A stretch of DNA of 64,000 nt from Parvibaculaceae bacterium PLY_AMNH_Bact1 (GTDB taxonomy: Bacteria; Pseudomonadota; Alphaproteobacteria; Parvibaculales; Parvibaculaceae), in assembly GCA_032881465.1 (NCBI GenBank), contig CP126168.1, positions 372,001-436,000 on the forward strand. Direction: 5' to 3'. Shown here piece by piece: positions 58,969-64,000 of the stretch; positions within the stretch are counted from its first letter, which is position 1; each line of letters opens with the position of its first letter. Position numbers and translations under genes: made by a program. The notes beneath the pieces are model-generated. The model saw only the letters and a program-made list of their open reading frames with translations. It was not told the origin of the DNA and did not search any database.

Positions 58969-59045
58969 GCACCGGTAGCTCAGCTGGATAGAGTACTTGA
59001 CTACGAATCAAGGGGTCGGGAGTTCGAATCTTCCCCGGTGCGCCA
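58969..59045 (+). tRNA. tRNA-Arg (anticodon ACG)
   Basis: Acceptor stem GCACCGG/CCGGTGC, D arm GCTCAGCTGGATAGAGT, anticodon stem CTTGA/TCAAG around loop CTACGAA, T arm with TTCGAAT, discriminator G and an encoded CCA. ACG is read as ICG for arginine. The 3' half overlaps the antisense end of the serine recombinase gene, marking it as the integration site. Confidence 0.95.
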
Positions 59046-60564
59046 TTCCTTTTTTGCCCTCGGAAATCATGTCTAAGGCCTTGAATGGAAAGGCCTTTTG
59101 GGGTGTTCGAAATCCTTCATTTGGGCAATAGGCTAAGCGCTCGACAAAAGCAAGTTTCAGCAGCCGTCTTCGGTCCTCAAAATTGTCTGAATGCCAGAGT
59201 TTTAAAGGGTTTGAGAAAAACGTCATGGCGTGTTCGAACTTTTTTGCAAAGGCATCACGTGGCTGGCCACTTGCGGCCAGTTTTTCCTCCAACACCAATT
59301 TGTTTGCTTCAAGCTTGGCGATACGTTTCTCGTAAGTGCTCACCACACTTGCCGTAGGCGCATCGACGATGCGGTCCAGCAATGCTTCCACTTGCTTGTC
59401 GATCTGGGCGATGTCGCGGCGGAGTTTGTCATTGCGTTCTTTTACTTGCTGCGCACCTTGATCCCACATCGTGCGGAAAATCGCCTTTAGAACGTCATAT
59501 AGCTCAGGCTGGGGCTGCATGGATTGCAGCAGCTCCGCGAACTCACTCTCCATCACATCCCGCCGTGTGGACTTACGGTAAGTTGAGCACTTCCGGTTGA
59601 AGCAGTAGTAGTAAGGATACTTCCGCCCGTTCTTGCTGGTGGAAAAAGCAGCAGTCAAAGGCTTGTCACATTCAGAGCAGCAGACGAATCCCCGTAACGG
59701 GAAATCCTCACTCATATCTTTGCGCACAGGTGCTTTGCCATCCCCGCGGGTGAGGCGGTCTTGTACCTTTTGGTAGGTCTCAAAGCTCACCAGAGGTTCA
59801 TGGTGGCCTTTACGCATGCTTACACCCCAATCGGCATGGTCCAGATAGCCCGCATAAACTTTCTGGCGCAGCAAGATAAAGACCCGTTCATTGCTCACCA
59901 GCCCGTTCTTAGGCTTGGGGAATTCAGGGCGGCTTTGCAAAAAGCGCATGACCTCCGCTTGGGCGTCGAATTTCCCTGATGCGAAGCCCTCAATCGCTTG
60001 TTTGACGATAGAAGCGACGGGTTCGTCCGGCACCAGCCAGTTCTTGTGAATCGGGTGGCGTTCGTAACGGTATCCAACCGGACGGGCAAACGGCCAATAG
60101 CCATTCATAAGCCGCGCCCGCATTCGGTTCTTGGTTTGCTCCGCGTTTTTCTGGCGATGGTGTTGGGAGACGCTGGCCAGCATGTTCTCAATGAGTTGGC
60201 TGTCTGAATCTTCCCCAAACTCGATGGAGGGGGACTCCAGCACACCGCCTGCAGACGCAATAGAGGCGCGAAGCGTTAAGTGTGCTTCCAGCCCTCGAGC
60301 CAGCCGTGAGATGTCATCAATGATCACAACATGAGTCTTTGAGCGATGCTTGCGCAGGAAAGCGAGCATTGCACTCATGCCCGGACGGCCCGCCACCTTG
60401 CCGGACATGTCATCGGTAAAGACCTCCACGACCTTGTAGCCTTTATAGGCAGCAAATTCGCGGCAACGGGTCTCTTGTGACCCTAAGCCTCCGCCTTTGG
60501 CTGATTGCTTGGTATGGGAGACACGGGCATAGATGACCGCTTCTGTTGTCGTGTGTTTTTCCAT
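59008..60564 (-). CDS. Large serine recombinase (site-specific integrase)
   Basis: 518 residues. Resolvase catalytic domain with Ser16 in YARVSHTKQ, DDMSGKVAGRPGMSAML and VVIIDDISRLARGLEAHL, then a recombinase domain (RPVGYRYE, RQKVYAGYLDH), a zinc ribbon (CCSECDKPLT ... YYYCFNRKC) and a C-terminal coiled coil (about 375-440). The last residues, HRGRFELPTP and stop, are encoded by the antisense strand of the tRNA-Arg 3' half. Directs integration and, with a partner, excision. Confidence 0.93.
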   Translation of the reverse strand: MEKHTTTEAVIYARVSHTKQSAKGGGLGSQETRCREFAAYKGYKVVEVFTDDMSGKVAGRPGMSAMLAFLRKHRSKTHVVIIDDISRLARGLEAHLTLRASIASAGGVLESPSIEFGEDSDSQLIENMLASVSQHHRQKNAEQTKNRMRARLMNGYWPFARPVGYRYERHPIHKNWLVPDEPVASIVKQAIEGFASGKFDAQAEVMRFLQSRPEFPKPKNGLVSNERVFILLRQKVYAGYLDHADWGVSMRKGHHEPLVSFETYQKVQDRLTRGDGKAPVRKDMSEDFPLRGFVCCSECDKPLTAAFSTSKNGRKYPYYYCFNRKCSTYRKSTRRDVMESEFAELLQSMQPQPELYDVLKAIFRTMWDQGAQQVKERNDKLRRDIAQIDKQVEALLDRIVDAPTASVVSTYEKRIAKLEANKLVLEEKLAASGQPRDAFAKKFEHAMTFFSNPLKLWHSDNFEDRRRLLKLAFVERLAYCPNEGFRTPQKAFPFKALDMISEGKKGMAHRGRFELPTP

Positions 60565-60845
60565 CCTGACTCATTGCGTCCCGCTGCACGGTGGAAGTCG
60601 GCGCGGGCACTTGTTTTGTGTTGTTTGTATACGGAGCATTCTACCATGGAATCGGCTGATTTGGCAGTAATTTCCTCCATCTTAGAGGCTTTTATGTGGG
60701 CAAATGCATCATCCTCCCACGCCGCATCAACCAAGGGGGAGAAGAATTCGACTGCCGCCAGAATCCATGACCGTTTTTGCTCAAGCGTGAGATCGTAGTC
60801 TTTCATGATGGGCAAGAAGTCATCAGGATCAATATTGTAGCGCAT
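60483..60845 (-). CDS. Hypothetical protein overlapping the recombinase start
   Basis: 120 residues from ATG 60845: YNIDPDDFLPIMKDYDLTLEQKRSWILAAVEFFSPLVDAAWEDDAFAHI... in parts. It is acidic and helical at the N terminus and basic at the C terminus. Its last 82 bp overlap the recombinase start in another frame. I recognise no family. The directed composition and position directly before the integrase argue for a real gene, perhaps a recombination accessory. Confidence 0.55.
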   Translation of the reverse strand: MRYNIDPDDFLPIMKDYDLTLEQKRSWILAAVEFFSPLVDAAWEDDAFAHIKASKMEEITAKSADSMVECSVYKQHKTSARADFHRAAGRNESGWKNTRQQKRSSMPVSPIPSNQPKAEA

Positions 60846-60960
60846 GCGGCGGACTCCACCCACACGCGGCAAGGCGATAAATGCCTTAGCCGCGCCGGGT
60901 CAATACAGGTTGGTTGATGCGAAAGAGTTTACGGGGCGTCAGAACGCTAAACGGGGGAAA

Positions 60961-60986
60961 GGCGGAGCCGTGTTAGTGGCTCCGCC
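60961..60986 (-). terminator. Hairpin terminator at the end of the mobile-element operon
   Basis: GGCGGAGCC - 8 bp - GGCTCCGCC, a perfect 9-bp stem followed on the minus strand by CTTTCCCC. It lies 15 bp after the stop of the last gene of the operon. Confidence 0.6.
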
Positions 60987-61000
60987 TTCCGTGTTTTCGT

Positions 61001-61285
61001 TTAGCGGCTTCGTCCAAAGTCAGCCTTTGCGTGTCCAGCTTTGGGTTTGAGAGCGAAATCTGTCTCGAACCCTTCGCGGGCGGCACCGAGGGATTGTCGC
61101 AGTTCCTTGATGCGTGTTGTGTGGCTCTCAAAGGACTGCTTGCGAATGGTGTCCATGAGGTCATCGCGCGGTTGCAAGCTCGGTTCCGGCGTCGGTTTGG
61201 GCGTATCACGCAAGCGTTGCAGCAGCTCCGCTTGCGTCTTGATCCGCGGATGCGGTGCACGCACCGCATCGAACTCCCTGCTCAA
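61001..61285 (-). CDS. Small charged protein of the mobile element
   Basis: 94 residues from a TTG at 61285 that overlaps the stop of the gene before it. Rich in Arg, Lys and Glu, mostly helical (LLQRLRDTPKPTPEP, DDLMDTIRKQSFESHTTRIKELRQSLGAAREGFETDF). No family recognised. Translationally coupled to the 109-residue gene, downstream of the coupling ATPase. Confidence 0.55.
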   Translation of the reverse strand: MSREFDAVRAPHPRIKTQAELLQRLRDTPKPTPEPSLQPRDDLMDTIRKQSFESHTTRIKELRQSLGAAREGFETDFALKPKAGHAKADFGRSR

Positions 61286-61611
61286 CGGTCATGGTCTTGC
61301 GATTGGTGCTCTTGTGCACCTTCCTGACCAGTGCGCTTGGCATCAAGGCGCTCCTTGGGAGTGCGAAGCGTGATGCGGCCATTCACTGGGGTCGCGTCAA
61401 GCGCAACATCGAAGCCGTTGCCGTCCTTGTGCTGGAAGGCAGAGCCCACGCGGTTAAAGAAGGCCTTGCCTTCGGCGTTCTCACGCACGGAATAGGCGAT
61501 GTGGCTCGGGCGCTTTTTGGGTGTCGGAGTGTCATTAATGTCTGGGGTGCTTTGATCCTCACGGCCAGCGCTTTGACGCGGCGCTGGCCCGTTCTGTTCC
61601 TTGTCTGACAT
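61282..61611 (-). CDS. Conserved small protein next to the coupling ATPase
   Basis: 109 residues: a polar N terminus, then HIAYSVRENAEGKAFFNRVGSAFQHKDGNGFDVALDATPVNGRITLRTPKERL in parts, a compact beta-rich unit that I recall from plasmid and element loci beside traG in related bacteria. Function unknown. Starts 24 bp after the ATPase stop. Confidence 0.68.
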   Translation of the reverse strand: MSDKEQNGPAPRQSAGREDQSTPDINDTPTPKKRPSHIAYSVRENAEGKAFFNRVGSAFQHKDGNGFDVALDATPVNGRITLRTPKERLDAKRTGQEGAQEHQSQDHDR

Positions 61612-61635
61612 GGGATGTCTCCAGTTTGGGAAAAG

Positions 61636-63252
61636 TTAGAGGGGATACCCCTCTACACTTAACGCCCGTCCACTCTGGTGTTGGGGGAAGTGTGCCCATT
61701 TTGCCGGGACAGGTTCATTGATGACCCGCGCCCATTTGGAGCCAAAGCGCGTCGCAATCCGTACCTTGTCCGGTGGCGGGTGGTAGGGATTGGGAAGATA
61801 GCGCCCGGCATTCTCACGTTGGGAATAGTAAGGGGCTTTATTGCCCAAAATGGGATCAAGGTTCTTGCCGGAGATGAAGAGGACTTGTTGGTCTTCGGAC
61901 AAACGCAACACTTCGTCGTCGTTGAGAAGCTGGCGTGCCTGCTTGCTGCGATGCTCGGCACTCTTGGTGTAATGGCCAAGATCATAGCTTTGCGCTAGCG
62001 GATCATTCCCGAACAAGGCCTGCTTGGCCGCCTGCCACTTCTCGCGTTTGGCGGCTTGCTGATACTCAAACCCATCATAAGAAAGCGTCTCTGATCCCAG
62101 CATCGCGGAGATGAGCCTTGCGGTCTCATAATCGCGCACCCCGAAGAACTGACGCACTTGCGCTGAGCCCATAAAGGACTGCACGGCGGAAAAATCAAAA
62201 TTTCGTGCGATCTGACCAGTGTCCTGAAACAGAGCCCAGGTGCGTACTCCGAAGCCCCGCCCATAAGTAAAAGCTGAAAGCAGGGCTTCGAAGCGTCCTA
62301 ATTGACCCGCTTCATCGACGATCATCGTGATACGGGGTGCATCCAGCGCACGGGATTTATAAAGCATCGTGATGGTGACAAAGGTACGGATCAGCGGCGA
62401 CCAGAGCTTGAGATATTCCGCAGGCACGTTCATGAACACGCTGGTGGTCACGGTAGGGTCTGAGAGCGCCGCTAGTGAGAAGTCGCTGCCTTCCAGCGAG
62501 GCGAGCAAGGCGGGATCGCTCAGGAAACTGAGATGGGCATATATCTCGCCCAGAATTGAGCCGAACTCTTTCTGGCTTTCCTGCTGTTTGGTGAGCATCT
62601 CAGCCCCGACGCGGCGCACATCTTCAAAGCGGGATGCCAGCATGTGCTCCAGCATATCCGCCCAGCCCTGCGGATTGCCTTCAATCAGATTGATCGTGCG
62701 CCACAGTACGGGGAAGCTGACTGAGCCCAGCCACTCGACAATGGCCTTGAGGATCGTATCCAGCCATTCCCGTGCCCTTAGCTCAAAATACTGACCGTTG
62801 GAGCTGCCTGAGAGCGGGATAATGCCCTCGCAGATGAATTTGGAGTCCGCATGAAGCCGGGGACTGCTCAGCGTCAGAATATCCAGTGGGTTGCAGCTAT
62901 GGCTCGGCAGGTCTGCGATCTTCATCGGATTCCAGCCATAGGCATATTCCCCGGCAGGCGCATAGGTGTGCTGACAGATGGAGAATATCTCGCCGCGTGG
63001 ATCAAGCCAGAGCATGGGTTGGCCTTTGGCGTTGATGGCGACATTGCCCAGCAAGTCCCGCAGCTTGCCGCTGCCAGCCCCGCCAATGGTGAGCAGGGGC
63101 GCATCGCCCTCTAGGTGGATAGCTTTGCGGCCAAAGAAGCCGAGCGGCAGGCCGCGCCCCTCAAACAGGCCAGCTTTGCGCAAATCATGTTCCTCAGCCC
63201 AGCGCGCAGAGCCAAAGCGATGGTCTTCATTGAATGTGTGATCACGTGTCAT
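61636..63252 (-). CDS. TraG/VirD4-type conjugative coupling ATPase without membrane anchor
   Basis: 538 residues from ATG 63252 with AAGGGA upstream. FGSARWAEEHDLRKAGLF is the usual start of the cytoplasmic part of TraG proteins. Walker A GGAGSGK at about 57-63 is followed by Leu instead of Ser/Thr/Gly; Walker B is ITMIVDEAGQLGRF (about 309-322). SYDGFEYQQAAKREKW and the C-terminal domain follow. The two N-terminal membrane helices of standard VirD4 proteins are absent, while two small membrane proteins are encoded just upstream. The frame is open further upstream, but without a start site or a membrane segment of the usual kind. Confidence 0.87.
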   Translation of the reverse strand: MTRDHTFNEDHRFGSARWAEEHDLRKAGLFEGRGLPLGFFGRKAIHLEGDAPLLTIGGAGSGKLRDLLGNVAINAKGQPMLWLDPRGEIFSICQHTYAPAGEYAYGWNPMKIADLPSHSCNPLDILTLSSPRLHADSKFICEGIIPLSGSSNGQYFELRAREWLDTILKAIVEWLGSVSFPVLWRTINLIEGNPQGWADMLEHMLASRFEDVRRVGAEMLTKQQESQKEFGSILGEIYAHLSFLSDPALLASLEGSDFSLAALSDPTVTTSVFMNVPAEYLKLWSPLIRTFVTITMLYKSRALDAPRITMIVDEAGQLGRFEALLSAFTYGRGFGVRTWALFQDTGQIARNFDFSAVQSFMGSAQVRQFFGVRDYETARLISAMLGSETLSYDGFEYQQAAKREKWQAAKQALFGNDPLAQSYDLGHYTKSAEHRSKQARQLLNDDEVLRLSEDQQVLFISGKNLDPILGNKAPYYSQRENAGRYLPNPYHPPPDKVRIATRFGSKWARVINEPVPAKWAHFPQHQSGRALSVEGYPL

Positions 63253-63285
63253 CACGAAATCCCTTTCTTCCAGATGTAAAAGGAA

Positions 63286-63315
63286 AAAGGGGCACCCGTT
63301 TCCGGATGCCCCTTT
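63286..63315 (-). terminator. Hairpin terminator after the 67-residue membrane protein
   Basis: AAAGGGGCA - 12 bp - TGCCCCTTT, followed on the minus strand by TTCC after a run of Ts within the stem. It separates the small membrane genes from the coupling ATPase, and may attenuate rather than fully stop read-through. Confidence 0.65.
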
Positions 63316-63337
63316 CAGACGGTGCTCAATGTGAGCC

Positions 63338-63541
63338 TTAGTAGGTAATGCGGGTCTTGTTCTTGAAGCGGCTGGTGATGGCGAAAATGCCAACACCAAT
63401 GCCGCCCCAGACAAAGCCCGCAGCGATAGCGCCATTGAAGAACGCGATGGCTGCGAGGAAGCAGGCAAAGCCTCCCACGAACATGAAGAAGCCTTTGATT
63501 GGTCCTTCAACGGATTCCTTTTTACCTTTTTTGATCTGCAT
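63338..63541 (-). CDS. Small two-helix membrane protein of the mobile element
   Basis: 67 residues with a good AAAGGAG site. A basic N terminus (QIKKGKKESVEG), two hydrophobic segments (about 17-35 and 38-56), basic end (SRFKNKTRITY). Glycine-rich helices. No family recognised. Possibly supplies a membrane anchor to the coupling ATPase. Confidence 0.65.
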   Translation of the reverse strand: MQIKKGKKESVEGPIKGFFMFVGGFACFLAAIAFFNGAIAAGFVWGGIGVGIFAITSRFKNKTRITY

Positions 63542-63571
63542 AACAGTTCTCCTTTGTAAGAGTTTTAGGGG

Positions 63572-63868
63572 TCAGAGAAAGCGGGCAGCGATAGCGAGCC
63601 CACCCATGGTGATCGCGAGACCGAGCGAGGCGCGTGCAACGAAGAAGGTTGTTGCCGCCACGGCGATGAACCAGCCCACAAGAGCGGGGTCCGTTAGGCC
63701 GGGGCTGTAGTGACGCGCGACGAAGCTCGCGATCCAGTCTTCAGATGCGCGGTACGCAAGCGGTGTTGCGAAGAAGGTCGCGACAACCGCCGCCGTATTT
63801 GCAAGCCCGTTGATCGAGCCCATAAATACGGAACGTCCCGCTTCGTTATGTTGTTTGTTGCCAAACAT
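63572..63868 (-). CDS. Small membrane protein of the mobile element
   Basis: 98 residues from ATG 63868 with GGAGG upstream. Hydrophobic segments at about 15-34, 60-75 and 77-95, with a soluble middle (RASEDWIASFVARHYSPGLTDP). No family recognised. First visible gene of the minus-strand element operon. Confidence 0.62.
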   Translation of the reverse strand: MFGNKQHNEAGRSVFMGSINGLANTAAVVATFFATPLAYRASEDWIASFVARHYSPGLTDPALVGWFIAVAATTFFVARASLGLAITMGGLAIAARFL

Positions 63869-64000
63869 GGGATGCCTCCAGTCTTTGGAGTTGGGCTTGG
63901 GGACCATTCCCCGAGCCGTACATCCTCAATAGAGGGGGTGAGGCGACGGACTGGGGGAATGCCCGGAAAATTTGAAGTTCGTGGCAGAAGCCGGGCGCTT

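Follow-up and report, generated by a model that had tools for sequence, protein, structure and literature searches.

The large serine recombinase described here is very likely the integrase of a mobilizable element, and it comes from a serine-integrase family that uses tRNA genes as attB. We give this explanation as a whole a probability of about 0.85. In its circular or phage form, the element carries attP within the 3′ portion of the integrase gene. The intact gene crosses a short core, TGG-Y-G in most members, and continues for about 25–45 codons into a conserved tail that comes from the element's other end. Integration leaves the tail at attR, and the integrase frame then enters the 3′ end of the antisense tRNA.

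The integrase gene and its tRNA target

The window, which is the whole stretch of 64,000 nucleotides analysed, corresponds to C1:372001-436000 in a genome of 3.74 Mb with a single contig. By the ORF list and the Pfam domains, the integrated form of the integrase gene lies on the minus strand at 59008..60564 and encodes 518 aa. The protein matches Resolvase (1.2e-24), Zn_ribbon_recom (1.7e-06) and Recombinase (4.3e-05). PF00239, PF07508 and PF13408 are all over the cut-off, so the domain set of a large serine recombinase is met. The best NCBIfam matches are the SCCmec-type Ccr recombinases, yet they stay below the curated cut-off, as with CcrB at 80 bits versus 900.

The integration target is a tRNA-Arg(ACG) gene placed by ARAGORN on the plus strand at 58969..59045. 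It is identical in 77/77 positions to the copies in G003, G006, G007 and G008, therefore integration leaves the tRNA intact. The 518-aa frame overlaps the antisense tRNA by 38 nt, taking its 3′ end (59008..59045, minus strand) from there, and the protein ends in MAHRGRFELPTP. TGGCGC at 59040..59045 of the minus strand, found by matching the tRNA with the right end of the element, is the core common to attL, attR and the reconstructed attP. The TTCGAA of the T-loop (59023..59028) begins 17 bp from the T of TGG and is proposed, by inference, as the zinc-ribbon motif of attB.

A preliminary description, made without any comparison, had the recombinase reading into the 3′ half of the opposite-strand tRNA-Arg and gaining its last residues there, which the ORF and ARAGORN coordinates uphold. 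Its statement that the integration site encodes part of the integrase also held, with attP inside the integrase gene. One point is corrected here: the tRNA-derived residues are not the native end but replace a native tail. The same gene end in relatives without an element would have spoken against that description. No close copy of the recombinase exists in the six other genomes of the genus, where G004 alone has a match, at 26% identity.

Element ends and the gene completed in the circle

The right end was at first expected as an attR copy of the tRNA 3′ end beyond position 64000. This expectation failed as stated, since the right junction has just 6 bp in common with the tRNA. Genome-wide searches by DNA and by pattern for a long copy of the tRNA 3′ end found none. 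A 24-nt tRNA pattern with up to 3 mismatches occurred in the whole genome only at the tRNA itself and at one other place (3 mismatches). The lack of any end at a plausible length would have refuted the preliminary description, but an end is located 23.6 kb away. This real right end, with the 6-bp common core TGGCGC, was located by comparison with the same-genus genomes.

In G008, the gene that sits at 464752 in the window's genome comes only a few bases after the tRNA, therefore the G008 site is empty. The G008 contig starts just before the tRNA, and the left flank is not on the same contig. The junction between two islands at genome position 454617 reads TTTAGGCGCGCCA on its left and CTTTCCATAAT on its right. 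The sequence to the right directly adjoins the tRNA in G003 and G006, and the 103 bp to the left, 86% identical, close the G003 island beside a chromosomal gene. Because the two flanks match these tRNA-adjacent and island-end sequences, the element spans genome positions 431046-454617, or 23.6 kb.

The left part of the element fills 59046..64000 of the window, and the right end falls outside at what would be coordinate 82617. At that end, comparison with the relatives places an orphan tail frame on the minus strand at genome 454490-454615. When the ends are joined in silico, the integrase frame stays open for 548 aa, and its tRNA-derived end is replaced by MARLNEESSNTLFNTLAQWEALLDPENRDTKVPVGSHAPSTP. 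The 548-aa reading frame is also preserved at the end of the G003 island. The G003 island itself, with the same right end, was set aside as a relic with no integrase among its listed ORFs.

Tandem islands at the same tRNA-Arg are seen in several genomes of the genus, namely at C1:454618-464745 here, in G003 (L049) and in G006 (L050, L056 and L059). Some tRNA-Arg islands, that of G003 for example, finish in a tail relic without a visible integrase. The island next to the present element encodes a 1483-aa autotransporter with passenger repeats (L008:571-5022, genome C1:455571-460022).

The element looks mobilizable because it carries a relaxase of the MobA/VirD2 type and a NikA-like protein (both at L007:14083-15882) and a type IV secretion coupling protein (61636..63510 of the window, minus strand; PF02534, 5.4e-41). 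Within the element and outside the window, a HerA ATPase (PADLOC E 5.5e-239) adjoins SIR2 (1.8e-126) at L007:9903-12719, equal to genome C1:444903-447719. These neighbours form an anti-phage defence pair of the SIR2-HerA type, carried as cargo.

Relatives end in tRNA genes

A recombinase profile searched against a class sample of 385 genomes matched 26 places in 20 of them. For 24 of the 26, ARAGORN called an antisense tRNA where the gene ends, with seven kinds of target: Arg 9, Val 3, Ser 3, Ala 3, Thr 3, Leu 2 and Tyr 1. The two without a call are L072, which reads tRNA sequence up to the contig end, and the frameshifted L083, which has a tRNA-end-like pattern close to the contig end. As a control, 30 other serine-recombinase loci were taken out of 65 listed matches. 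Three of these 30 had an antisense tRNA at the gene end (Fisher p 2.8e-10 against 24/26), and four further ones had it 200–500 bp past the gene end.

Among the named genomes, eight relatives were found with 46–55% identity; a ninth match of 54 residues (L023) was excluded from the counts. In six of the eight, ARAGORN called an antisense tRNA at the end of the gene. L019 reads a tRNA-like sequence, L021 is partly masked, and L022 has a frameshifted gene. The recombinase frame over TGG is identical in 31 of 32 loci, with L093 as the exception. This set holds 25 of the 26 class-sample loci (without L083) and seven of the eight named ones (without the frameshifted L022).

One alternative is that the recombinase frame enters the tRNA merely by chance and that the tail has no connection with it. 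In its favor, any frame that crosses an antisense T-loop yields FELPTP-like peptides, and 3/30 controls also enter tRNAs. Against it stand the 24/26 relatives versus 3/30 controls, the constant frame and the tail partner, and two of the three control positives belong to a second tRNA-ending clade. The chance explanation is thus all but excluded.

As separate observations, FELPTP-like peptides are indeed present in other loci with such a crossing. Two genes, L164:1594-3141 and L141, stop at the core (MAEGVS onward and a terminal MARHSE, respectively) and have neither a recognisable tRNA nor a tail.

The tail is conserved and pairs with the recombinase

A profile of ten tails matches 20 of the 385 class-sample genomes, 15 of which also have the recombinase. 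The chance of this overlap is 6e-19. Some own-family genomes had given tails to the profile; with those genomes excluded, 14 remain in common and the chance figure is unchanged. Five of the 20 recombinase genomes gave no tail at E 0.01 (G128, G146, G181, G183 and G234), and five tail genomes gave no recombinase at the cut-off (G003, G006, G199, G242 and G283). Nonetheless, G199 has a recombinase in shortened form at a tRNA-Leu (L150, G199:C1:1556489-1558280). Only about 1.7 kb separate it from its tail, and we infer a nearly collapsed element.

In the same-contig pairs, the tail is on the recombinase strand and 5′ of the recombinase, 1.7 to 37 kb apart; for the G423 pair this order assumes a circular contig. 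All 17 pairs join in frame (11, then five and L020). In the 11-pair junction set, the L098 and L105 tails were positioned by hand. The G137 and G697 recombinases have a stop elsewhere in the gene. Four matches of the first tail query (L062, L063, L066 and L067) were unrelated by eye and were dropped.

Codon diversity was compared in 21 ungapped tails (L060, L098, L105 and L113 were left out, the last for a 3-codon insert), or 19 after near-identical ones were removed. Past the proposed half-site, diversity at codon positions 1/2/3 is 0.475/0.287/0.656, and pS is 0.764 with pN at 0.396. Because third positions vary most and pS is higher than pN in 160 of 171 pairs, the tail is conserved at the protein level. 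Within the half-site, up to TTCGAA, the diversity is 0.204/0.397/0.397. A structure model predicts the tail to be a low-confidence helix without confident placement. In the model of the phage relative described below, long helices at 347-395 and 399-425 are predicted after the zinc ribbon and meet the coiled-coil criterion.

A rival view takes the conserved right end as an attP DNA half-site only, in which the frame is a by-product and the tail has no protein role. The part of the tail up to TTCGAA coincides with the proposed half-site and lacks a simple coding pattern, as this view would have it. However, past the motif position 3 is the most diverse and position 2 the least, with the same excess of pS over pN, and the frame is preserved in 17/17 pairs and in the phage gene. 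The half-site-only view is therefore very unlikely.

A natural intact form in a phage contig

The family profile found eight relatives in viral contigs. In one of them, a 27.4-kb phage contig (L166), the recombinase runs uninterrupted into the tail and ends in SVLRGFSDTNSVLVDISGESSNSFLDILRNWSDALNPYKSTLLAA. A profile built from ten of the 11 in-silico junctions (that of G172 was excluded as near-identical to that of G151) matches this gene in one piece, at positions 4-71, with E 2.5e-22 and no stop. The fused gene has a replication gene upstream of it and genes for neck, methyltransferase and terminase proteins downstream; with phage genes on both sides of the integrase, the arrangement is unintegrated.

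The related L165, 71% identical to the L166 recombinase, reads into a tRNA-Ala instead, and the ends of L160 and L162 lie in tRNA-Ala too. L159 and L161 end in tRNA-like sequence without an ARAGORN call, L163 is broken, and L164, as noted above, has neither tRNA nor tail at its end.

For every integrated element the circle is reconstructed rather than observed, and one natural intact copy is found. A fused integrase-tail copy was absent among the 26 class-sample genes and in 398 phylum-sample genomes. No intact fusion was found in plasmids with the reconstructed protein as a query (E 1e-60), in phages with the window protein (1e-20), or in viral contigs with the window protein. Scanning viral contigs with the junction profile confirmed none. 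A betaproteobacterial relative gave three plasmid matches, one of 26% identity and two partial, without an intact fusion, and the tail query gave two weak plasmid matches. Two phylum-sample candidates for junction-crossing genes, G640:C37 and G689:C60, were rejected: the first is a tail that a chance frame happens to precede, the second a degenerate end.

The preliminary description had proposed that excision gives the integrase another 3′ end. This is supported by the second end that was read and by the intact form in the phage contig. It had also proposed a switch between two protein forms. The two ends are supported, and a difference in activity is plausible, without activity data.

The phage copy also bears on the possibility that the tail does not belong to the integrase but is a small protein in its own right, encoded by the element and translated from an NTG that the core creates. 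Many attR copies of the tail do start with ATG, GTG or TTG at the core. Against this, the start base comes from the variable flanking DNA, the phage copy is one unbroken integrase-tail frame, and the integrase frame over the core is kept in the 31/32 loci. We consider a separate protein very unlikely.

How the site may be read

In attB, on the antisense tRNA, 31 of 32 loci have a TTCGAA-like motif that begins 17 bp from the T of TGG. The one locus with an offset of 16, L021, has masked sequence at which the motif was picked wrongly. In attP, the motif begins at 22 in 22 of 25 tail places by script, the 26th (G006 3692882, two rows) being excluded. The exceptions are L060 with CGG for TGG, L098 with AAG, and L105, where a wrong TGG was picked and the motif fits by eye.

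Rutherford and colleagues placed the zinc-ribbon motif at attP positions 16-24, and 5 bp nearer the centre in attB (PMC3783163). The 5-bp displacement between 22 and 17 agrees with this published model of serine integrases. As a proposed mechanism, inferred from sequence alone, the zinc ribbon would read the T-loop TTCGAA in attB, whereas in attP it would read a copy that lies among the tail codons and is 5 bp more distant. Related enzymes could then move among many tRNA genes because the TTCGAA motif is common to most tRNAs.

The attP cores follow the tRNA that each element occupies. In 11 pairs, they match their own tRNA at 55/77 positions versus a shuffled mean of 40.8, and 16 of 20000 shuffles are as good. 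The central dinucleotide of the crossover should lie in or beside TGGYG, an inference from sequence alone that does not determine its exact position.

A second tRNA-ending clade

Another serine-recombinase clade, about 22–25% identical to the window recombinase, includes two of the three control positives. In this clade (L204-L213), nine of 11 members read into antisense tRNA-Gln, Asn or Glu, and eight of the nine do so in one common frame, unlike the frame of the window family. The count takes 11 of 12 rows, without the N-terminal piece L215.

Candidate right-end tails, WLPFLNTYRTMCVAPEPDFRRLLEDIRELHIAA and WLPFIARYRTMCLAPKLEFRRVLEEIRELRLAA, were found in two of five regions (G242:C1:3444852 and L221 of G090). 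Their motif is at 22 and their cores follow their own tRNA. The two differ from each other at 9, 4 and 21 of the 33 first, second and third codon positions, and they have dissimilar sequences upstream. No tail at offset 22 was found in 43 kb of G128, and the stretches searched in G410 and G221 were short. The scan also gave seven places at other offsets, including a cargo gene common to G242 and G090. As element ends, the places of the two tails are candidates only, judged from sequence alone.

The third control positive, L189, is 23% identical and reads into an antisense tRNA-Arg, and it is absent from the second clade's matches. It may represent a third origin.

Discussion

The tail is conserved and the integrated form of the Mx8 integrase is reportedly less active, so a difference in activity between the two forms is inferred here. 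In the proposed mechanism, the tailed protein would be integration-competent. The form in the integrated element would be altered, most likely less active, and would thereby help retain the element. There are no activity data, and this step could as well be wrong as right.

A neutral economy is the main competitor to it. Here, attP in the gene keeps the enzyme and its site together, the tail is native, and both forms work equally. The lack of activity data, the replacement peptides that vary with the tRNA, and the several integrated genes that seem intact up to the junction all allow it. Against it, the tail is conserved as protein, which suggests a use, and the integrated form of Mx8 was reported less active (PMC4701971). 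We lean slightly away from the neutral economy without dismissing it.

The principle that integration changes the C-terminus of an integrase is already known from Mx8 for the tyrosine enzymes and from the rumA ICEs for the serine ones (PMC4701971, PMC6070905). The streptococcal rumA ICEs have a single serine integrase whose C-terminus is changed on integration, as in the window family (PMC4701971). However, their target is the protein gene rumA and not a tRNA gene, and the sections of PMC4701971 that bear on them mention no conserved tail or zinc-ribbon motif. Mx8 IntP likewise has attP within the integrase gene and gains a new 3′ end by integration (PMC6070905, PMC4383910, PMC4701971); its end of 112 residues gives way to one of 13, and the integrated form has lower activity (PMC4701971). 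IntP is a tyrosine integrase, though, and its mechanism is unrelated. The Mx8 target is a tRNA gene.

The criterion of the Mx8 and rumA ICE type, a frame that crosses attP and is changed by integration, is met here by the in-silico circles and one phage copy. The integrase gene also spans attP in the SSV-type archaeal elements, where it extends across the site (PMC4383910), but this is a tyrosine recombinase. The SSV-type gene is split in two, not given a new end. In the integration-dependent immunity of the mycobacteriophage BPs type, attP is inside a gene and integration changes the C-terminus of the protein. The gene spanning attP there is the repressor, not the integrase.

The integrase of Listeria phage A118 (LI integrase), likewise a large serine recombinase, shares the Recombinase and zinc-ribbon domains and the 5-bp motif shift between attP and attB (PMC3783163), and it matches the phage relative in PDB with E about 2e-06. 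It differs in its target, and only an ordinary attP is described in the sections of PMC3783163 that bear on attP. The target of A118 is comK.

Serine integrases with tRNA-gene targets were called unknown in 2015. A 2017 review assigned tRNA genes to the tyrosine recombinases and disrupted protein genes to the serine ones (PMC5704250). Later island surveys mapped both integrase types and many tRNA sites (PMC12424338, PMC12884075), so their tables may hold unremarked cases of serine integrases at tRNA genes. No description of serine integrases aimed at tRNA genes was found in the titles and opening abstract lines of the open-access literature searched. Nor did that literature yield the pairing of serine integrase and tRNA gene, the conserved tail or the T-loop reading.

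Islander restricts the term island to tyrosine integrases, and its paper counts Mx8 among the integrases crossing attP. The present element meets neither of its criteria. The enzyme is a serine recombinase and not of the tyrosine family, and instead of an intact tRNA with a displaced tRNA fragment there is an intact tRNA with only the 6-bp core at the far end. Island finders that seek a displaced tRNA fragment and a tyrosine integrase, such as Islander, would overlook such elements.

A bolder reading is that serine integrases more than once took tRNA genes as targets, their zinc ribbon reading the near-universal T-loop TTCGAA, and built attP into the last integrase codons. The enzyme would thereby sense whether it is integrated: with its tail it would integrate, and in the form ended by the antisense tRNA it would neither re-attack nor excise unaided. 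We hold this reading, both parts taken together, to be less likely than not, and that the second-clade tails are candidates only lowers its odds a little.

Serine integrases are in wide use for genome engineering. The annotated genomic gene is the integrated form, so by inference a cloned enzyme may lack its native tail. Integrases directed to tRNA gene ends via a motif that most tRNAs share would add portable landing sites to those in use. In this family, nature's own exchange of the tail is a ready-made experiment on the C-terminal control of direction.
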